DNA of 53,777 bases, from assembly GCA_903907865.1 (NCBI GenBank), contig CAIVPR010000159.1, positions 1 to 53,777 of the forward strand. The letters are read 5' to 3'. This document shows, piece by piece, positions 15,883 through 43,904 of the stretch. Made by a program: the position numbers and the translations under genes. The notes under the pieces were generated by a model. That model ran no database searches. It worked only from the letters and a program-made list of their open reading frames with translations, and was not told the DNA's origin. Position 1 is the first letter of the stretch. Each line of letters starts with the position of its first letter. Source of the stretch: an uncultured Acidobacteriia bacterium. Lineage in GTDB: Bacteria > Acidobacteriota > Terriglobia > Bryobacterales > Bryobacteraceae.

Positions 15883-16326
15883 TCAAGGCTCGGTGGTCGC
15901 GGTAATCTTGAACCCCTCCTCGTCCTCGTCCCAGGTTTGGTTCTCAATATAGGCCCTGATCGTGGCCTCGTCCACCGCGCCCACCGTCGCGCAAAAATAC
16001 CCCCGCGCCCACATGTGCTGGCCCCAGTACCGTCTCCGCAATTCCGGGAATTCCGCCTGCAGGTGCCGCGACGACCGCCCTTTGATGTATTGTGCCAGTT
16101 TCGCCGGTGCCAGCGAAGGCGGTGCCGCCAGCAACACGTGGATGTGGTCCGGCGACACCGCGCCCCGCACGATCACCACATCCCGCGATTGGCAGATCTG
16201 CCTGATCAGGTCGCGCACACGCTCGGCCACAGGCCCCTTCAGAATCTTGTATCGATATTTTGTGCACCACACCAAGTGGTACTTCAGATCGAACACCGCG
16301 TGCGCGCTATGCCTGTACTCCGCCAT
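15883..16326 (-). CDS. tnpA: IS200/IS605-family transposase TnpA (Y1, HUH)
   Basis: 147 aa, the normal IS200 TnpA length. FDLKYHLVWCTKYRYKIL is the family's typical opening. HIHVLL supplies the two histidines of the HUH metal site. A tyrosine in TIRAYIENQ, near residue 125, is at the catalytic Y1 position. The protein acts as a dimer on single-stranded DNA ends. RAYT proteins that mobilise REP hairpins belong to the same superfamily and cannot be excluded, since the gene is bordered by several hairpins. No TnpB gene is present. It appears full length and undisrupted. Confidence 0.93.
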   Translation of the reverse strand: MAEYRHSAHAVFDLKYHLVWCTKYRYKILKGPVAERVRDLIRQICQSRDVVIVRGAVSPDHIHVLLAAPPSLAPAKLAQYIKGRSSRHLQAEFPELRRRYWGQHMWARGYFCATVGAVDEATIRAYIENQTWDEDEEGFKITATTEP

Positions 16327-18460: not shown

Positions 18461-19411
18461 ATGAAGACTAGGACTCTCCCTGCTGGTGCGCTCCTGGCGG
18501 TCGTGTTCGGCTTTTCCGGGCTGCTCACCGCACAGCAGCCCGCTGCGCCCGCCAGCGTCGAAAACAAATATGTCGGGGGCCAGGTCTGCCGCACCTGCCA
18601 CCCCGACGTCTGGCTCAACTTCAACAAAAACCCGCACTTCAAGTCCGTGGCGCTGGGGAACCAGCCGCAGGAGAAGACAGGTTGCGAAGGCTGCCACGGT
18701 CCGGGGGGCAAGCACGTTGCCGCTGGCGGCGGAAAGGCCACGATCCGCGCTTTTTCCCAGATGACGCCGCCGCAGGCGCTCGAAACCTGCCTCACTTGCC
18801 ATTCCAAGGACCTTTCGCGAGCCAACATCCACAAGTCGGCCCATACGGAAGCCGATGTGGCCTGCAACTCCTGCCACTCGGTCCACAAGGCGGCCACACC
18901 CAAATTCCTGCTGGCCAAACAGCAGACGCAACTCTGTTACACCTGCCATGCCGATGTTCGAGCCCAATTCGAACTGCCGTCCAAGCACCGTGTGAATGAA
19001 GGCGCGGTCCAATGCTCGGATTGCCACAATCCCCACGGCTCGTTCGCCACCACTTGGGGCACCGGCACGGGCTCGGCGATGCTCGCGAACGCCAGAGAGA
19101 ATGAACAGCCCTGCCTGAAGTGCCACATCGACAAGCGCGGGCCGTTCGTATTTGAACATGAGCCCGTCCGGGTGGAGGGTTGCGCTACCTGCCACCAGCC
19201 GCACGGTTCGACCAACGCGAAGCTGCTCCGACGCCCCGTGGTCTTCACAGTCTGCCTCGAATGCCACAACGGCGGAGGTGCCGGCCGTCAGAACGGCGGA
19301 GTGCTCACGCAGACCAGTTCCCACAACCTGCAGGACCCCAAATACCAGCGCTGCGTGCTGTGCCACGTCCGCATACACGGGTCCAACAGCGATTCGAACT
19401 TCCTGAGATGA
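18461..19411 (+). CDS. Periplasmic decaheme c-type cytochrome, DmsE/MtrA-like
   Basis: 316 aa with a Sec signal (MKTRTLPAGALLAVVFGFSGLLTAQ). There are exactly ten CxxCH haem sites in order: CRTCH, CEGCH, CLTCH, CNSCH, CYTCH, CSDCH, CLKCH, CATCH, CLECH and CVLCH. Length, haem count and the VGGQVCRTCHPDVW opening fit the DmsE/MtrA/PioA family, which threads through an outer-membrane barrel to carry electrons between periplasm and cell exterior. The barrel gene follows after 11 bp. No inner-membrane quinol oxidase and no outer-surface cytochrome is adjacent. Confidence 0.95.
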   Translation: MKTRTLPAGALLAVVFGFSGLLTAQQPAAPASVENKYVGGQVCRTCHPDVWLNFNKNPHFKSVALGNQPQEKTGCEGCHGPGGKHVAAGGGKATIRAFSQMTPPQALETCLTCHSKDLSRANIHKSAHTEADVACNSCHSVHKAATPKFLLAKQQTQLCYTCHADVRAQFELPSKHRVNEGAVQCSDCHNPHGSFATTWGTGTGSAMLANARENEQPCLKCHIDKRGPFVFEHEPVRVEGCATCHQPHGSTNAKLLRRPVVFTVCLECHNGGGAGRQNGGVLTQTSSHNLQDPKYQRCVLCHVRIHGSNSDSNFLR

Positions 19412-19422
19412 GGAGAATGAAC

Positions 19423-21420
19423 ATGACGAACATAAGATTTGCCATCATCCTCCTGCCCGCGCTGCTTGCCGCCCAGGACACCGTCGCCCCAACGTGGGGC
19501 GAGCAGGTCGGCTCCACGCGCGGCACCAACAAGGGCGATTACAACATCGTCCAGAACTGGGAAACCGGCTACCGCTTCATGTCGGTTGGCGGCGACCGCG
19601 GCAAGTATTCGAGCGACGTCAACTACCGCGACGGCATCCGCCTGCTTTCCAGCCAGACGAGCGTCTATTCGAAAGCCGGCAAGGGCCGCTACTTCGACGA
19701 GTTCGTGCTGTCCACGCAAGGCCTCGGCAACGACCCTTACGAGTCGGCCGTGTTGCGGGTGGCCAAGAACGGGCTCTACCGCTACGATTTTTCGTGGCGC
19801 CAGAACGACTATTTCAATCCGGGCCTCATCGTTTCCGCCGGCGAGCATCTGGAAAACACCAAGCACCGCTGGCAGGACCACGAGTTCACGCTGTTTCCCG
19901 AGAAAAATTTCCGGGTGCGCGCAGGGTACGGCAGCGTGACCTTGAACGGCCCGGCGTTCGCGTCGCAGCAGGAGTTTGACACCAAGGGCGACGTGTATCC
20001 CGTCTTCCGCAACATCCAACAGCGCTTCGACGAGTACCGCATCGCGGCCGACGGCCGTGTGAAGAATTTCAAGTTCACAGTCCAGCGCCGCTGGGAGTTC
20101 TACAAGGAGGATACGAAGGACAACCAGTTGATCGCGCTAAAGGGGACAGCCCCAGCAGCCTTGACCTCGTTTGTCCGCCCGCAGCCCTATCGTGGCCGTA
20201 CTCCGGGCTGGATGGGGAACATCTACGGCGAAACACGTTGGATCGCCTTGAACGCCCACGCAAGCTATTCGGGCGGCACCGGCCACTACGCGCAGAACGA
20301 AATCGCCGTGGGCTTGGACCGCTTCGGCTCGGCCAACAACCGGCAGATCTCGGTGACGGCCAGTGGCGACCGTCCTGTCACGGCAGGGGATTTCTTGGCC
20401 ACGATCCTGCCAGGCAAGCGCTTCAGCATCGTCAACAACCTTTCGGCGTCCGACACCCGCATGAACGGCAGCAACGTCTTCCAGCAGTACGATTTGTCGA
20501 CGTTGTCCTTCGCCACCATCAACTTCCAGTTCCTCGGCATCCGGCTGGTGACCAACGCGACCGACGCGCACTTCCGCATCTCGAAGCATTTCGACGTCTT
20601 CGGCGGCATGCGGTTCTCGCAGCGCCAGATCCGCTCGATCGAAGATTCTGGCGACCCCACCACGCCGCTGTCGGGCGTTTCCGCCCAGCAGACCAACACC
20701 ACCAAGGCGGGGATTTTCGGTGCCAACATCTTCCTCGGCAAGGGCTTCCGGGCCCACTTCGAGGACGAGATCGGCCGCAATGACAACCCGCTGACCCCGG
20801 TCAGCCTGCAAGCCTACCACTCGGTCCGTTCGAAGGTCCAATACAGGACCAAGACTTGGACCTTGGGCGGCGGCTACAACGACAACTACAACAGCAATTC
20901 CGTCCAGATCACCGCGTACAGCTCCCACGCCCGCACCTACTCGGCGAACGGATCCTGGACGGCCAAGTCCTGGGTGTCCGTGGACGCCGGCTATTCCAAA
21001 CTCCACCTCGATACCATCGACGGGCTGGTGTTCTTCGCTGGTGCGCCGCGCGCCATCAAGGTTTCCGACCAGCAATCGATCTACATCAGCAACATCCACG
21101 CCGCGAATATCGGACTCCGCTTTGCCCTCCGGAAGTACGCGGACCTCTACGTCGGCTACAACCTGACCAAGGACACGGGCGACGGGCGGACCTCGCTCGC
21201 CACACAGTCGAGCGCCAACGCCCAGATCCTGTACAACGCCCAGACGTTCCCGCTCACCTACCAGACACCGCTGCTGCGACTATCGGTCCGGCTGACGGAG
21301 AAAATCCGTTGGAACGTCGGCTACCAATACTACGGCTACCGGGAAGATTTCGGGTTGTTGTCGCTCAACCAGGGTTACAGGGCCAATACGGGATACACTA
21401 GCCTGTTATGGGCATTCTGA
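19423..21420 (+). CDS. MtrB/PioB-like outer-membrane beta-barrel
   Basis: 665 aa. ATG 19423 is chosen because AGGAG (19411-19415) is then 7 nt upstream; ATG 19417 would be too close. A signal peptide ends near LLAAQ. The mature protein is made of alternating aromatic/polar beta strands with Tyr/Asn/Gly turns and ends in LLWAF, a terminal Phe as expected for BAM-inserted barrels. There are no cysteines, so the CxxC seen near the N-terminus of MtrB in metal reducers is absent. Its position behind the decaheme gene makes it the porin sheath of an electron conduit. The downstream hydrolase gene overlaps it by 13 nt. Confidence 0.85.
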   Translation: MTNIRFAIILLPALLAAQDTVAPTWGEQVGSTRGTNKGDYNIVQNWETGYRFMSVGGDRGKYSSDVNYRDGIRLLSSQTSVYSKAGKGRYFDEFVLSTQGLGNDPYESAVLRVAKNGLYRYDFSWRQNDYFNPGLIVSAGEHLENTKHRWQDHEFTLFPEKNFRVRAGYGSVTLNGPAFASQQEFDTKGDVYPVFRNIQQRFDEYRIAADGRVKNFKFTVQRRWEFYKEDTKDNQLIALKGTAPAALTSFVRPQPYRGRTPGWMGNIYGETRWIALNAHASYSGGTGHYAQNEIAVGLDRFGSANNRQISVTASGDRPVTAGDFLATILPGKRFSIVNNLSASDTRMNGSNVFQQYDLSTLSFATINFQFLGIRLVTNATDAHFRISKHFDVFGGMRFSQRQIRSIEDSGDPTTPLSGVSAQQTNTTKAGIFGANIFLGKGFRAHFEDEIGRNDNPLTPVSLQAYHSVRSKVQYRTKTWTLGGGYNDNYNSNSVQITAYSSHARTYSANGSWTAKSWVSVDAGYSKLHLDTIDGLVFFAGAPRAIKVSDQQSIYISNIHAANIGLRFALRKYADLYVGYNLTKDTGDGRTSLATQSSANAQILYNAQTFPLTYQTPLLRLSVRLTEKIRWNVGYQYYGYREDFGLLSLNQGYRANTGYTSLLWAF

Positions 21421-39050: not shown

Positions 39051-39621
39051 TAGGTTCAGGATACCTTTCGCCGCACTCCAGACTATTCAAATTGTCGATC
39101 TCCGTTTGCAGCGCGTGGCGGTCCCGGAACTGCATCGCCACCAAGCCGACGAACCACACCATGGAAAGCGCGAGGAACGGCAGGATCTTCCGTGCCGCCC
39201 CGGACGACGGGCCCGCGAGCGTGAGCAGCGCCGCAATCAGGGAGATCTGGACCAGCACCGTCGGTGCCGCCGACCAGGCCAGATTCCGACCGATCAGCAT
39301 CTGCCGCCGCTCCAATTCGGCCCGGTACGATTCGATGCCGGTCGCAGCTTCGGCTGCGGCGGGAACCCTTGTCCGCCGCACGAAGATTCCCACCGCCGAC
39401 CAGGCCACGGTGGCGGCAAACAGCAACCTTACCCGCGGATCGGGAAGCATCGCGGCGGGGTACACCGCGGTCAGGAGCACCACAGGGATAATGCGGGCCC
39501 GCAGCAACGCCCGTTTGTTCTGTTGCCGCAAGCCTTCGGTCCTTTGGATGATCTCCCCCATGCTCATCGGCCGGGGCTCCGTGGGCTGCTCTTGCCAGAT
39601 ACTACGAGGGTCGTTCGACAT
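39022..39621 (-). CDS. Membrane protein behind an ECF sigma factor, possible anti-sigma
   Basis: 199 aa. A cytoplasmic N-terminus (about 1-42, rich in Gln/Arg/Glu) precedes four predicted helices (about 44-60, 66-82, 118-136 and 146-163). The gene begins inside the last codons of the sigma-factor gene (20-nt overlap), the usual place for an anti-sigma partner, but no zinc-anti-sigma HxxxCxxC motif is seen. The role is inferred from position only. Confidence 0.7.
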   Translation of the reverse strand: MSNDPRSIWQEQPTEPRPMSMGEIIQRTEGLRQQNKRALLRARIIPVVLLTAVYPAAMLPDPRVRLLFAATVAWSAVGIFVRRTRVPAAAEAATGIESYRAELERRQMLIGRNLAWSAAPTVLVQISLIAALLTLAGPSSGAARKILPFLALSMVWFVGLVAMQFRDRHALQTEIDNLNSLECGERYPEPNGHPRLPSP

Positions 39622-40138
39622 GGCTACCTCCTTCGTGAAACCTCTTTGCGAGGATGTTCTTGATCCGATGGATCTTCATGGCGACATTGGCGGGCGAGAG
39701 TCCGGTGATTTCGCCGGTCGAGGCCGCGTCCAGCCCTTCCAGATAGGAAAGGATCACCTGTCGGTCCAGCGGCTTGAGTTGCTGGATCAAGGCGTGCAGC
39801 CGTTCGAGGTTCCTGCCGCCGTCGACCCGCACCGGGTTCCGGTCGGGCGGCGGATCGAAATCCTCCAAGCTCACCAGGCGCGACCAGGTCCGGCGCTCCT
39901 TCAGAACGTGGGACGCCCCGACCCGGTGACCGACCTGGTAGACCCAGGTCCGCATCGAACAGCGGCCGTCAAAGTGCGCGAAACTTCGCCAGAGCTGGAA
40001 GTGGATGTCCTGCGCGAGGTCGCGCCGCCGCTCCGGATCGGCCTCGTAGGCGGCGGCAAGACGCTCTACCGCTGCCCCAAACTGGTCGGCGGCTTGGCGG
40101 TAGAGGTCGGTTTGGGCGGTGTTTGCTCCCACGTTCAA
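39602..40138 (-). CDS. ECF-type RNA polymerase sigma factor
   Basis: 178 aa. Region 2 includes DLAQDIHFQLWRSFAHFDGRCSMRTWVYQVGHRVGASHV. Region 4 includes LHALIQQLKPLDRQVILSYLEGLDAASTGEITGLSPANVAMKIHRIKNILAKRF, a helix-turn-helix for the -35 element. The start is TTG 40138 or GTG 40132. The chain sigma, membrane protein, MEMO protein has reading-frame overlaps of 20 and 29 nt, implying coupled translation. It is divergent from the DUF1592 gene, with about 57 bp between. Confidence 0.92.
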   Translation of the reverse strand: MNVGANTAQTDLYRQAADQFGAAVERLAAAYEADPERRRDLAQDIHFQLWRSFAHFDGRCSMRTWVYQVGHRVGASHVLKERRTWSRLVSLEDFDPPPDRNPVRVDGGRNLERLHALIQQLKPLDRQVILSYLEGLDAASTGEITGLSPANVAMKIHRIKNILAKRFHEGGSHVERPS

Positions 40139-40181
40139 GGTAGTCGCTCGAAACGCCGTGTTCTAACAGGCCGAATGGGCA

Positions 40182-40187
40182 TAGAAT
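40182..40187 (+). promoter_or_regulatory. TAGAAT box 8 nt before GTG start
   Basis: A -10-like hexamer fixes GTG 40196 as the likely start of the DUF1592 gene. It lies in the short divergent gap with the sigma-factor gene. Confidence 0.45.
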
Positions 40188-40195
40188 GTAGGGGA

Positions 40196-42541
40196 GTGCC
40201 GCGTCCCCATTCTTCCATCCTTGTACTGATGTTGCTTGGCGGCAGCCTGCATGCCCAGACCGGCGGGGATTCCGACCTCCAGCATTCGCTCAAACCGTTC
40301 CTCGCGAAGAACTGCGCCGGCTGCCACAACCGCGCACTGCCTGCCGCCAATCTGGACCTGAGCGTCCCCCCGACCAACGCAGCGGTCCTCGGCAAGCTCC
40401 TCGACAAGATCTCGACCGGTAAGATGCCCCCGCCGGGCGCACCCGCCGTCGCCAAATCCGACCGCGACGCCATCGTTTCCGCGCTCGACAAGGCGCTGGG
40501 CTTTGGCGAGCCCAATCCAGGCCGCGTCACCGCCCACCGCCTCAACCGCGTGGAATACAACAATTCGATCCGCGACCTTGTCGGCTTGGACCTCCACGCC
40601 GCCGACGAGTTCCCCCTCGACGACACCGGCTACGGTTTCGACAACATCGGCGACGTGCTCTCCGTCTCGCCTATGCTGATGGAAAAGTACACGGCCGCAG
40701 CCCGAAAGGTTGCCCGCGTCGCAGTCCAAGGCCAGCCGCTGCCGCCGAAGCCGTCGAAACTGACCCGCTTCCTCGGCAAGAAACTCCAGGACGACCCCAC
40801 CGCCAACGCCCTCCCGTTTTCCTACCGCGGGGCGCTGTGGGCCACCTACACCTTCCCAATCGAGGCGGATTACGAATTCCGCATGCGCGTCGGCAACTAC
40901 CGCCCACGCGACCACTCCACCCCGCGCCAGACCGAATTGGCCAGGAAGCGCTCCCTTACCGAGGCCGAGAAAGCCGAACTCACAGAACTCAACCGCATCG
41001 CCGACCCTCCGGCGAAGATGGTGATGACCGTCGATGGCAAACCGGTCTACAGCGAGATCGTCGAAGGCAATATCGACTACGTCTATGCCCACGGCGAATC
41101 CATCGCGCGCGTCCATCTCACGGCGGGCGAGCACAGTTTCCGCGCTTCGTTCCCCGAATACGCCGATACCGACAAGCCGCTCGACAACGTCAACACCGAC
41201 GGCCGGCGCAAGCTGTTTGTGGACTATTTCGATATCGTCGGACCCTTCGACCCCAAGCCGCCCGCGCGGAATCCGAAAGTCTTCATCTGCGTCGACCGCA
41301 CGCCCGCTTGTTCGCGCCTGATCGTGCAGAATCTGGCCAGGCATGCGTGGCGCCGCCAGCCCACCGCCATCGAAGTCAACGAACTGGCAGATCTGGCTAC
41401 CGCAGTCCGCAAGGATTCAGAATCGTTCGACGACGGCATCCGCGCCGCCCTGCAGGCGATCCTGATGTCGCCGAACTTCCTCTTCCGTGTCGAGCGCGAA
41501 CCGACAGGCCCCCTCAGCGCCGTCAGCCTCGCCAACCGCCTGTCCTTCTTCCTATGGAGCGCGCCGCCGGACGACGAACTGATGCGCGCCGTCGAAAAGG
41601 GCACGCTGCTGAATCCGGGCGGGGTCCACGAACAGGTCCGCCGCATGCTGGCCGACAACCGGGCCGACACGCTGATCGACAACTTCGCCGGGCAGTGGCT
41701 TGGCCTGCGGATCCTCGACAAACGCAAGCCCGACCCCGCCCACTTCACGCTCTTCGACGACGAACTGATGGAGTGGATGCGCCGCGAGTCCGAACTGTTC
41801 GCCCGCACAGTGATGCGTGAGAACCGCAGTATCACCGACTTCCTCGACGGCAAGTTCGCCTACCTGAACGGCCCCTTGGCGCGCTACTACGGCATCGCCG
41901 GGGTCAACGGCGAGGATTTCCACCGCGTCGAACTAGCCGGTGACCAGCGCGGAGGCGTGCTGGGCCAGGGTGCCGTCCTCGCGCTGTCCTCCTACGCCAC
42001 CCGCACATCGCCCGTACTGCGCGGAAAGTGGGTGCTGGAAAATCTGCTCGGCACCCCGCCTCCTCCTCCGCCGCCCGACGTTCCGGCGCTCAAGGAAGAC
42101 CACATCGGCACCGAGGCCTCGCTACGCCAGCGGCTGGAACAGCACCGCGCCAAAGCGGAGTGCGCCGTCTGCCACAACATGATGGACCCTATCGGGTTCG
42201 CGCTGGAAAACTACGACGCCTCCGGGGCGTGGCGCGAGAAGGACGGCAATTTCCCCGTCGACACCTCCGGCCAGTTGCCCGGCGGCAAGCCCTTCAAGGG
42301 TCCGGCGGGGCTGAAGCAGGCGTTGCGCGACCAGTCCGCCCCCTTCGTCCGTAATTTCACCGAGAAGATGCTCACCTACGCGCTGGGCAGAGGCCTTGAA
42401 CCCTACGACCGCCCGACCGTGGACCACATCGTGGAGCGTCTGGCGGCGGACAACTACCGCTTCTCGACCCTGATCACCGAAATCGTCGACAGCCAGCCCT
42501 TCCGTATGCGGAAGGCGGAGGAACAATCGAATGCCAGGTAA
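40196..42541 (+). CDS. Exported DUF1592/DUF1588/DUF1585-family haem protein
   Basis: 781 aa from GTG 40196; an ATG at 40175 would add seven residues ahead of the signal peptide. The signal peptide ends near LHAQ. A cytochrome-c-like domain has CAGCH (40-44). The order then is DUF1587 (LNRVEYNNSIRDLVGLD), DUF1595, DUF1592 (RLSFFLWSAPPDDELM, WLGLRILDKRKPDP), DUF1588 (SYATRTSPVLRGKWVLENLLG with a CAVCH site) and DUF1585 at the end. This architecture is typical of Planctomycetes and Acidobacteria, always beside a DUF1552 gene. The enzymatic role is unknown; oxidation of a polymer-derived substrate is often suggested. Confidence 0.95.
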   Translation: MPRPHSSILVLMLLGGSLHAQTGGDSDLQHSLKPFLAKNCAGCHNRALPAANLDLSVPPTNAAVLGKLLDKISTGKMPPPGAPAVAKSDRDAIVSALDKALGFGEPNPGRVTAHRLNRVEYNNSIRDLVGLDLHAADEFPLDDTGYGFDNIGDVLSVSPMLMEKYTAAARKVARVAVQGQPLPPKPSKLTRFLGKKLQDDPTANALPFSYRGALWATYTFPIEADYEFRMRVGNYRPRDHSTPRQTELARKRSLTEAEKAELTELNRIADPPAKMVMTVDGKPVYSEIVEGNIDYVYAHGESIARVHLTAGEHSFRASFPEYADTDKPLDNVNTDGRRKLFVDYFDIVGPFDPKPPARNPKVFICVDRTPACSRLIVQNLARHAWRRQPTAIEVNELADLATAVRKDSESFDDGIRAALQAILMSPNFLFRVEREPTGPLSAVSLANRLSFFLWSAPPDDELMRAVEKGTLLNPGGVHEQVRRMLADNRADTLIDNFAGQWLGLRILDKRKPDPAHFTLFDDELMEWMRRESELFARTVMRENRSITDFLDGKFAYLNGPLARYYGIAGVNGEDFHRVELAGDQRGGVLGQGAVLALSSYATRTSPVLRGKWVLENLLGTPPPPPPPDVPALKEDHIGTEASLRQRLEQHRAKAECAVCHNMMDPIGFALENYDASGAWREKDGNFPVDTSGQLPGGKPFKGPAGLKQALRDQSAPFVRNFTEKMLTYALGRGLEPYDRPTVDHIVERLAADNYRFSTLITEIVDSQPFRMRKAEEQSNAR

Positions 42542-43904
42542 ATCCCTTTCCCGCCGCGCCATCCTGAGGGGGGCCGGAACCGCCGTCGCGCTGCCCTTGC
42601 TGGACGCCATGATCCCCGCGTTTTCGGCCGGTGCCGCCCAAGCCGCGTCGCCCTGCCGGATGGCGTTCCTTTACGTGCCCAACGGCATCATGATGCCGGA
42701 ATGGTTCCCGAAGGAGACGGCTTCGGTGGCCGCCGACACGTCGATCCCGCTGCCCGCCGTATTGCCGCGCGTGTCGTCGATCTTGGCGCCGCACCGCGAC
42801 AACATTCTGCTGCTTTCCGGCCTCACTCACAACGGCGGCCGCGCGTTGGGCGACGGTCCGGGCGACCATGGCCGCGCCGGTGCCAACTACCTGACCGGCG
42901 TGCATCCGAAAAAGACCAACGGCCGGGACCTGCAGACCGGAATTTCGGTGGACCAGGTTGCCGCGCGCCGTTTGGCGGACAAGACCCGCTTCGCCTCGCT
43001 CGAACTGGGCTGCGAGGAAGGCGTGCAGGGCGGCAGTTGCGACAACGGCTATAGCTGCGCCTACTCGAACAGCATTTCCTGGCGGACACCATCGTCGCCC
43101 GCGCCTGCCGAGATCCGTCCCCGGGCGGTTTTCGAGCGGTTGTTCGGCGCGGGGGAGGGCTTGACAGGAGAAAAAGCCGCTCGGGAAGCCCGCTACCAGC
43201 GCAGCATTTTGGACGTCGTCATGGGCCAGACCCGTCGGCTCGACGCGTCCTTGGGTGGTGCCGACCGCCGCAAGCTGGACGAGTACCTCGATTCCATCCG
43301 CGAACTCGAAAAGCGCATCCAGTCGGCGGAAAAACAAACCCAGACCGCGCCCAAGGGCGTTTCCGTGCCCGATTCCAGTATCCCAACCGAGTTCGGCGAG
43401 CACGCGCGCGTCATGTTCGACCTGTTGACTCTGGCATTCCAGACCGATTCGACCCGCGTCGCGACCTTGCTGCTGGCGCTCGAACAGAGCCCCAGGGCGT
43501 ACCCCGAGATCGGCATCCCCGAGGCCCACCACGGCCTCACCCACCACCAGGGCGACAAGGAAAAGATCGAAAAGGTAACCCAGATCAACTGCTTCCACGC
43601 CAAGCAGTTCGCCTATTTGCTGGACAAGCTGGCCAAGACCCCGGACGGCGACGGGACCCTGCTCGAGCACGTCATGATCACCTACGGCAGCGCCCTCAGC
43701 GACGGCAACGCCCACGATCATGCGAACCTGCCGACCGTGCTGGCGGGCAAGGGCTGCGGCCGGATCCAGCCGGGCCGACTGGTGCGCTACAAGGCGGAGA
43801 CGCCAATGACGAACTTGTTCGTCGCGATGCTGGACCGCATGGGCGTCCCGGTGGAGTCGTTGGGGGACAGCAACGGCGAGCTGGGGTATTTGTCGGGGCT
43901 GTAG
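42531..43904 (+). CDS. Tat-exported DUF1552 protein
   Basis: 457 aa. The Tat signal SRRAILRGAGTAVALPLLDAM is typical of DUF1552. The conserved body includes RMAFLYVPNGIMMPEWFP, LSGLTHNGG, DHGRAGANYLTG, GGSCDNGYSCAYSNSISW and LTHHQGDKEKIEKVTQINCFHA. Catalytic function unknown. It overlaps the DUF1592 gene by 11 nt; the pair is invariably linked in such genomes and probably forms an exported complex. Confidence 0.95.
   Translation: MPGKSLSRRAILRGAGTAVALPLLDAMIPAFSAGAAQAASPCRMAFLYVPNGIMMPEWFPKETASVAADTSIPLPAVLPRVSSILAPHRDNILLLSGLTHNGGRALGDGPGDHGRAGANYLTGVHPKKTNGRDLQTGISVDQVAARRLADKTRFASLELGCEEGVQGGSCDNGYSCAYSNSISWRTPSSPAPAEIRPRAVFERLFGAGEGLTGEKAAREARYQRSILDVVMGQTRRLDASLGGADRRKLDEYLDSIRELEKRIQSAEKQTQTAPKGVSVPDSSIPTEFGEHARVMFDLLTLAFQTDSTRVATLLLALEQSPRAYPEIGIPEAHHGLTHHQGDKEKIEKVTQINCFHAKQFAYLLDKLAKTPDGDGTLLEHVMITYGSALSDGNAHDHANLPTVLAGKGCGRIQPGRLVRYKAETPMTNLFVAMLDRMGVPVESLGDSNGELGYLSGL

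Follow-up and report, generated by a model that had tools for sequence, protein, structure and literature searches.

A decahaem cytochrome and an MtrB-like barrel as a probable stand-alone electron conduit across the outer membrane in Bryobacterales

The closest described relatives of the gene pair considered here are the MtrAB core of the Shewanella MtrCAB complex (structure 6R2Q, the Mtr complex), whose barrel, MtrB, is reported to have 26 strands (PMC7198977), and the two-component PioAB and MtoAB systems. From the Acidobacteria, decahaems, MtrCAB and porin-cytochrome clusters have been described before (PMC9671151 and the papers that follow). Among them are decahaem cytochromes of the MtrA/PioA type (PMC3669403, PMC10654088) and, in Holophaga, porin-cytochrome clusters that include an MtrB homologue (PMC7399161), and MtrCAB in Bryobacterales is listed as Group 5 by Baker et al. 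2022 (PMC8805035). Here, we describe adjoining genes for a decahaem cytochrome (A) and a predicted outer-membrane barrel (B) in a stretch of 53,777 nucleotides from an uncultured bacterium of the family Bryobacteraceae, order Bryobacterales (contig CAIVPR010000159.1, assembly GCA_903907865.1), hereafter called the window. The pair very probably forms an electron conduit across the outer membrane. No description of an order-wide AB pair independent of MtrC was found in the open literature, subscription papers lying outside the scope of the search. The pair consists of the following features:

18461..19411, plus strand: decahaem c-type cytochrome of the MtrA/DmsE family, 316 amino acids, with a signal-like N-terminus and ten CxxCH motifs
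19410..19415, plus strand: Shine-Dalgarno-like GAGGAG between both genes, overlapping the decahaem stop and fitting the ATG at 19423
19423..21420, plus strand: outer-membrane barrel, 26 strands and MtrB fold in the predicted model, no cysteine, C-terminal Phe (alternative start 19417)

The first gene encodes an MtrA-family decahaem cytochrome with a full set of candidate haem ligands. Its open reading frame (ORF) runs from an ATG at 18461 to a stop ending at 19411 and contains exactly ten CxxCH motifs (residues 43, 75, 110, 135, 159, 185, 218, 241, 265 and 298), the number that had been counted in a previous interpretation of the letters alone, here called the sequence-only reading. Shuffling of the residues (n=20,000) gave a mean of 0.08 motifs and a maximum of 3, and ten is thus far above chance; among the 266 stop-to-stop frames of at least 100 amino acids in the window, one has ten motifs, one has two, one has a single motif and 263 have none. 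The protein scores 278.4 bits against TIGR03508, the model of DmsE/MtrA-family decahaems, and passes the curated cut-off of 192.2. Among solved structures, a phmmer search ranked 6r2q_A closest (E 1.8e-37), with residues 39-313 as the best-matching stretch. We take chain A of 6R2Q to be MtrA and chain B to be MtrB; the structure library mislabels the molecule of chain A. All ten CxxCH histidines and ten other histidines are kept in 24 of 24 aligned rows of the window type, and the additional ten, which could supply each haem with a distal ligand, are candidate axial ligands. The hydrophobic N-terminus, which ends in LTAQQ, reads by eye as a putative signal peptide, in line with the previous description.

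In-frame ATGs of the barrel gene are found at 19417 and 19423, and its stop ends at 21420. The start at 19423 is the likelier of the two because the spacing to GAGGAG is 7 bases, as compared to 1 base for 19417, and it leaves the gap of 11 bp after the decahaem gene that the sequence-only reading had given. That the protein is free of cysteine and ends in Phe was also borne out (zero cysteines, C-terminus WAF). The AlphaFold2 model has a mean predicted local distance difference test score of 75.3 and a predicted template modelling score of 0.68, and lists 28 strand pieces, which by our count make 26 strands when two short pieces are merged with the strands next to them. In the fold comparison, MtrB was the best match, well above TonB receptors and porins, with an identity of 11-12% in the structural alignments. 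A search of Pfam and NCBIfam at E up to 1 gave no match to the barrel, and a sequence search of solved structures gave no relative, the best hit (E 0.077, a superoxide dismutase) being taken as chance. Profile comparison ties the barrel to the genome's own PF11854-positive MtrB, which is encoded on another contig, C42 (E 7.9e-17). MtrB of metal reducers carries a CxxC motif. This motif is present in 0 of 34 distinct window-type barrels, which agrees with the previously noted lack of an N-terminal CxxC; a lone CAGC, in locus L152, sits ahead of that barrel's likely start.

The pairing is conserved in the order. The barrel has matches at E up to 1e-3 in 181 of 200 Bryobacterales genomes, which we split into 154 strong ones (E 1e-72 or better) and 27 weak ones (1e-13 or worse); the figure of 154 counts the barrel, and the check for an adjacent decahaem covered the fetched loci rather than every one of these genomes. 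A decahaem gene lies upstream of the barrel in 29 of the 30 best loci, the remaining one being truncated at the end of its contig, and in 73 of the 74 named loci with at least 1 kb of upstream sequence, where the exception has its haem motifs split over two frames (80 loci were named, six of which are cut upstream and were left out of this count). The spacing in 28 loci is a 4-base overlap in 10 and 2 to 50 bases in the others. By our reading, 78 of the 80 listed loci bear acidobacterial titles, in keeping with the proposed acidobacterial origin of the window. Locus L149 (CALQCC020000007.1) comes from a metagenome-assembled contig titled Bordetella parapertussis; its barrel is a 40% relative among acidobacterial ones, and the title looks misassigned.

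When the window was compared to 20 loci from the order, with genes at the barrel region of the extended loci chosen by conservation, the pair was common to all 21 and the next gene families to 4. The commonest other neighbour families occur in 14 of the 50 named loci with both flanks. Six such neighbour proteins were searched against Pfam: three scored over the cut-off (rhodanese, EPSP-synthase family and T2SSF), two just under it (one a propeller, the other an outer-membrane barrel type) and the sixth had no match. An ORF of 104 amino acids directly follows the barrel in 14 of the 50 loci (e.g., L113 7969-8283, plus strand; no Pfam match), and is possibly a third component in a sub-clade. Within the 14-20 kb fetched for each of 23 loci from the order, 22 are free of further ORFs with at least three CxxCH motifs, the exception being L057, with a five-haem ORF at the far edge.

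Inheritance of the pair across the order looks vertical. Midpoint-rooted trees were inferred from 56 pairs, after 7 of 63 loci without a usable pair had been dropped from both trees: six (L180, L186, L188, L190, L191 and L192) have no barrel, and L051 has no decahaem under the distance rule, though another search finds one. The window-type rows are united in a single clade to which none of the MtrCAB-type rows belongs, with support values of 100/99 for the decahaem and 100/100 for the barrel. Within this clade, families f1 and f3 of the order are separated both in the decahaem tree (89/71 and 100/96) and in the barrel tree (100/100 and 100/99), which is the pattern that vertical descent would give. 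The correlation between A and B distances is 0.956 when all pairs are used and 0.92 within the window type, values that can be raised by shared species history alone.

The pair is also found in other acidobacterial families. The phylum search gave barrel matches in 89 of 396 genomes, and from the best of these we chose 17 loci of 16 genomes (L157-L173) as an outgroup, in which a decahaem gene directly precedes the gene of a same-family barrel (E 6e-74 or better). These rows are the nearest relatives from outside the order in the trees. All 17 form a single clade in the decahaem tree (98/92), whereas three f63/f86 rows stand apart from the other fourteen in the barrel tree, so that the trees disagree in part. 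Further ORFs with three or more CxxCH motifs lie near the pair in 17 of 17 outgroup loci (12-19 kb fetched). Among the proteins tested, L163 has a CbcL-like one, in which nine haems are combined with a cytochrome b561 domain, and an ImcH-like one of the NapC/NirT type with seven haems and three hydrophobic segments; L170 has an eleven-haem CbcL-like protein and a five-haem ImcH-like protein. The quinol-dehydrogenase-like neighbours were studied with family models on the proteins of 2 loci and with blastp on 5, and the names CbcL and ImcH are our assumption from domain make-up and recall, not from a family model. Neighbours that would suggest a purely periplasmic role, which the sequence-only reading had named as possible counter-evidence, were not seen among these loci, the neighbours being CbcL- or ImcH-like where tested. 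In an earlier survey, no mtrAB is reported beside imcH (PMC6295460), so that either the ImcH link in the outgroup would be new or the name is too narrow.

The genome of the window contains a complete MtrCAB cluster on the separate contig C42 (L061, 2402-10025, genes co-directional). Its OmcA/MtrC decahaem scores 466.8 bits against TIGR03507 (cut-off 209.3), its second decahaem scores 252.4 bits against TIGR03508 and is 42% identical to the window decahaem, and its barrel passes PF11854 over part of the protein (26.8 vs 23 bits). The cluster also holds a cytochrome with four CxxCH motifs and a five-haem NapC/NirT protein. The previous statement that neither an outer-surface multihaem protein nor a terminal reductase adjoins the pair is right locally, and the genome search for outer-surface cytochromes that had been suggested as a check recovered the OmcA/MtrC type on C42, which is the one MtrC over the cut-off in this genome.

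Across the order, the strong barrel and MtrC occur independently of each other. OmcA/MtrC is over the cut-off in 134 of the 200 genomes (genomes were assigned to this set by their E-values, which gives the same total of 134). Strong barrel and MtrC are found together in 105 genomes, the barrel without an over-cut-off MtrC in 49, MtrC without a strong barrel in 29 and neither in 17 (Fisher p 0.59), and in 34 of the 154 genomes with a strong barrel, MtrC gave no match even at E up to 1e-3. On the basis of this independence, we rejected the idea that every pair has a surface partner of the OmcA/MtrC type. The C42-type NapC-like protein, in contrast to the barrel, is present in 129 of the 134 MtrC genomes, but in only 6 of the 34 MtrC-less barrel genomes. 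A CbcL-like feeder in the window genome was considered and rejected, as the best match covers the b-type part only (49 bits).

In one genome, G126 (the contig of L112), an OmcA/MtrC-type decahaem follows the pair on the same strand (498 bits to TIGR03507), and this is the one case among the 80 named loci, some with short flanks, in which a second ten-haem ORF adjoins the pair. In a tree of 31 MtrC proteins, the G126 MtrC groups with those of L180, L186 and L192 (100/100), and no barrel gene was present in the 18 kb fetched for these three. The OmcA/MtrC clade of four, one of which lies beside a window-type pair, is:

L152, 2858-4882, minus strand: OmcA/MtrC-type decahaem
L180, 8217-10283: OmcA/MtrC-type decahaem
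L186, 7970-10009: OmcA/MtrC-type decahaem
L192, 7880-10144: OmcA/MtrC-type decahaem

Among the 20 fetched MtrC loci, 14 have a C42-type barrel and six have none, two of the six being short of sequence (L188 stops directly behind MtrC, where its contig ends, and L191, a complete contig, measures 6.1 kb). Matches of at least 51% identity to the G126 MtrC, a line set by us with tree membership checked for four such proteins, are found in 21 of 200 genomes, and all but one of these have a strong barrel. The window genome has no MtrC of this type, its sole match being the C42 MtrC at 46%. A split MtrC may thus serve the pair in some species, but it cannot account for the breadth of the pair. As a separate observation, locus L183 (6317-8950, minus strand, G008) contains an ORF of 877 amino acids with 17 CxxCH motifs between MtrA-like and MtrC-like genes, apparently an enlarged conduit cluster.

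Five neighbours of the pair in the window were identified with Pfam: DinB and DNA-alkylation-repair proteins upstream, and an alpha/beta-hydrolase, a major facilitator superfamily (MFS) transporter and an M48 peptidase downstream. None of the five is a terminal reductase, including the dimethyl sulphoxide-reductase type DmsAB, and the window has no further ORF of at least 60 amino acids with three or more CxxCH motifs. The ATG of the alpha/beta-hydrolase falls within the 3' end of the barrel gene. The hydrolase and the MFS transporter were rejected as partners, since each is common to only one of the 20 extended loci, in the closest relative, G101. An IS200-like transposase (Y1_Tnp, 15883-16326, minus strand) lies about 2.1 kb upstream of the pair. 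At 39092-43904 (plus strand), the window encodes a protein of 1149 amino acids with DUF1587/1592/1588/1585/1595 domains and two CxxCH motifs, followed by a DUF1552 protein.

As a whole, these data are best explained, with moderate confidence, by a stand-alone trans-outer-membrane conduit of the MtrAB/PioAB type. The porin-cytochrome conduit that had been proposed from the letters is supported by the decahaem at the sequence level, by the predicted fold of the barrel and by the conserved pairing, and we consider it probable that the AB pair is used on its own, with no dedicated surface cytochrome encoded next to it. The decahaem would sit inside the 26-strand barrel, and its haem chain would link the periplasm to the cell surface. 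In the absence of an MtrC cap, soluble or diffusible compounds would be the expected partners of the last haem, as is reported for Shewanella MtrAB without MtrC (PMC7198977, PMC4245776); candidates for an exposed terminal haem are Fe(III)/Fe(II) chelates, humic substances and shuttles. Where present, a surface cytochrome encoded elsewhere might exchange electrons with this haem. With less confidence, net flow may be outward, as an overflow of respiratory electrons at low oxygen; this direction is slightly favoured by the quinol-dehydrogenase-like neighbours in other families and by the reduction of Fe(III) in Paludibaculum, an isolate of the Bryobacterales (PMC8407742). More tentatively still, and on the doubtful side as a complete picture, Bryobacterales, an order of common soil bacteria, could vertically inherit a two-protein wire, in many species without OmcA/MtrC or a NapC/CbcL feeder, that is instead plugged into the ordinary respiratory chain, with dissolved organic matter or complexed iron as its redox partners.

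Several observations weigh against this explanation. PF11854 (MtrB_PioB) gives no match to the barrel, and a strong barrel match is absent from 46 of the 200 genomes, which makes the pair common, not universal. The feeders known from the outgroup are missing from most of the 34 MtrC-less genomes: NapC/NirT (PF03264) is over the cut-off in 11 and at E up to 1e-3 in 13, several of the 11 matches being short, NrfH-sized frames, and a match over most of a CbcL-like protein was obtained in 3. The C42 MtrC might serve both AB pairs of the window genome, which has at least 8 more ORFs with 5 to 8 CxxCH motifs outside C42, and the genome-wide search for surface partners covered the OmcA/MtrC type, not OmcB- or OmcS-like types. 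The Shewanella conduit is reported to need MtrC or a paralogue for the reduction of Fe(III) or electrodes (PMC6831781), and PioAB and MtoAB, likewise without MtrC, are tied to electron uptake in the available accounts.

Uptake is indeed the alternative that we take most seriously, albeit as a rather unlikely one. In a PioAB/MtoAB-like system, Fe(II) or reduced organic matter would be oxidised outside the cell and electrons would pass inward to the aerobic chain, a direction favoured by the PioAB/MtoAB precedent, by the reported need of Shewanella for MtrC or a paralogue and by the missing feeders, as most MtrC-less AB genomes are without recognisable quinol dehydrogenases of the NapC/CbcL type. 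The two-gene arrangement without a surface cytochrome is that described for PioAB and MtoAB (PMC6831781, PMC8805035, PMC6344600), and a survey of Fe(II) oxidation lists PioA/MtoA homologues in Acidobacteriia and PioC homologues in Acidobacteria (PMC10654088). However, the window decahaem has no PioA-like N-terminal extension, no gene like that for a high-potential iron-sulphur protein was seen among the five neighbours tested, the genome not having been searched for one, and the outgroup copies adjoin quinol-dehydrogenase-like genes. These outgroup neighbours are not decisive either way, since CbcL, MtoC and MtrH types are described from both metal reducers and oxidisers (PMC6295460).

The pair could also be the trans-membrane half of a split MtrCAB, with an OmcA/MtrC-type partner encoded elsewhere, on C42 or, in other species, as an orphan MtrC. 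The G126 MtrC, directly after the pair and grouping with three barrel-less MtrCs, the strong barrel in 20 of the 21 genomes with a similar MtrC and the presence in the window genome of one over-cut-off MtrC are all consistent with this. We nevertheless regard it as unlikely: the 34 of 154 AB genomes without any MtrC match and the independent presence of the two genes argue against it, the C42 MtrC is already provided with an A and a B in its own cluster, the orphan type is confined to about a tenth of the genomes, the window genome not among them, and a second ten-haem ORF adjoins the pair in a single named locus. It is highly improbable that there is no conduit and that the barrel is a transporter or receptor of the usual sort, with a periplasmic shuttle cytochrome encoded next door. 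No sequence model ties the barrel directly to MtrB, as this alternative would have it, but the match to the MtrB fold, the profile link to the PF11854-positive MtrB of the same genome and the conserved pairing speak for a conduit.

If the pair conducts, extracellular electron exchange is far commoner in these acidobacteria than surveys keyed to MtrC suggest. The survey of Baker et al. 2022 is described as requiring mtrC, mtrA and mtrB together in the cluster (PMC8805035) and could therefore not list the window pair; surveys that require mtrCAB and annotation with PF11854 would both miss it, despite the strong barrel in 154 of 200 genomes. The MtrC-less species would then be natural tests of the AB core alone, of the direction of flow and of the partner. 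If a stand-alone wire of soil bacteria is the true explanation, electron exchange across the outer membrane would be a widespread, near-default trait of Bryobacterales. For the minority with an MtrC of the mostly orphan group, G126 provides a concrete hypothesis for the partner.

In comparison with the known systems, the pair shares with the MtrAB core of Shewanella MtrCAB a decahaem of the same family and a barrel model closest to MtrB, with 26 strands. It differs from Shewanella MtrCAB in having no adjoining MtrC, in a barrel that is 11-12% identical in the structural alignments and is missed by PF11854, and in its independence of MtrC across the order. The MtrCAB clusters of Bryobacterales, including the C42 copy, come from the same order and have homologous A and B proteins, but fall into another clade in both trees, and the C42 cluster has its own MtrC, four-CxxCH cytochrome and five-haem NapC/NirT protein. 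PioAB of Rhodopseudomonas and MtoAB of Sideroxydans are likewise two-component conduits without a surface cytochrome (PMC6831781, PMC6344600). Unlike PioA, for which an N-terminal extension of about 200 residues is reported (PMC6831781), the window decahaem has its first CxxCH at residue 43 of 316, and no PioC-like gene is among the five neighbours tested; Fe(II) oxidation, the role of MtoAB, is at most a putative role of the window pair. DmsEFAB differs by DmsAB, which is not among these five neighbours. The two-gene pcc (porin-cytochrome) clusters of Anaeromyxobacter and Kuenenia are similar in combining a porin with a periplasmic multihaem cytochrome and no surface cytochrome (PMC4245776), but their cytochromes, of the Pcc type, are described with 12-14 haems, as compared to ten haems and the MtrA family in the window. 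In other acidobacterial families, multihaem genes accompany the pair in 17 of 17 loci, whereas it stands alone in 22 of 23 loci of the order. Undetected by PF11854, and neither MtrCAB nor PioAB, the pair is of the MtrAB/PioAB kind and has the same core by fold and arrangement.

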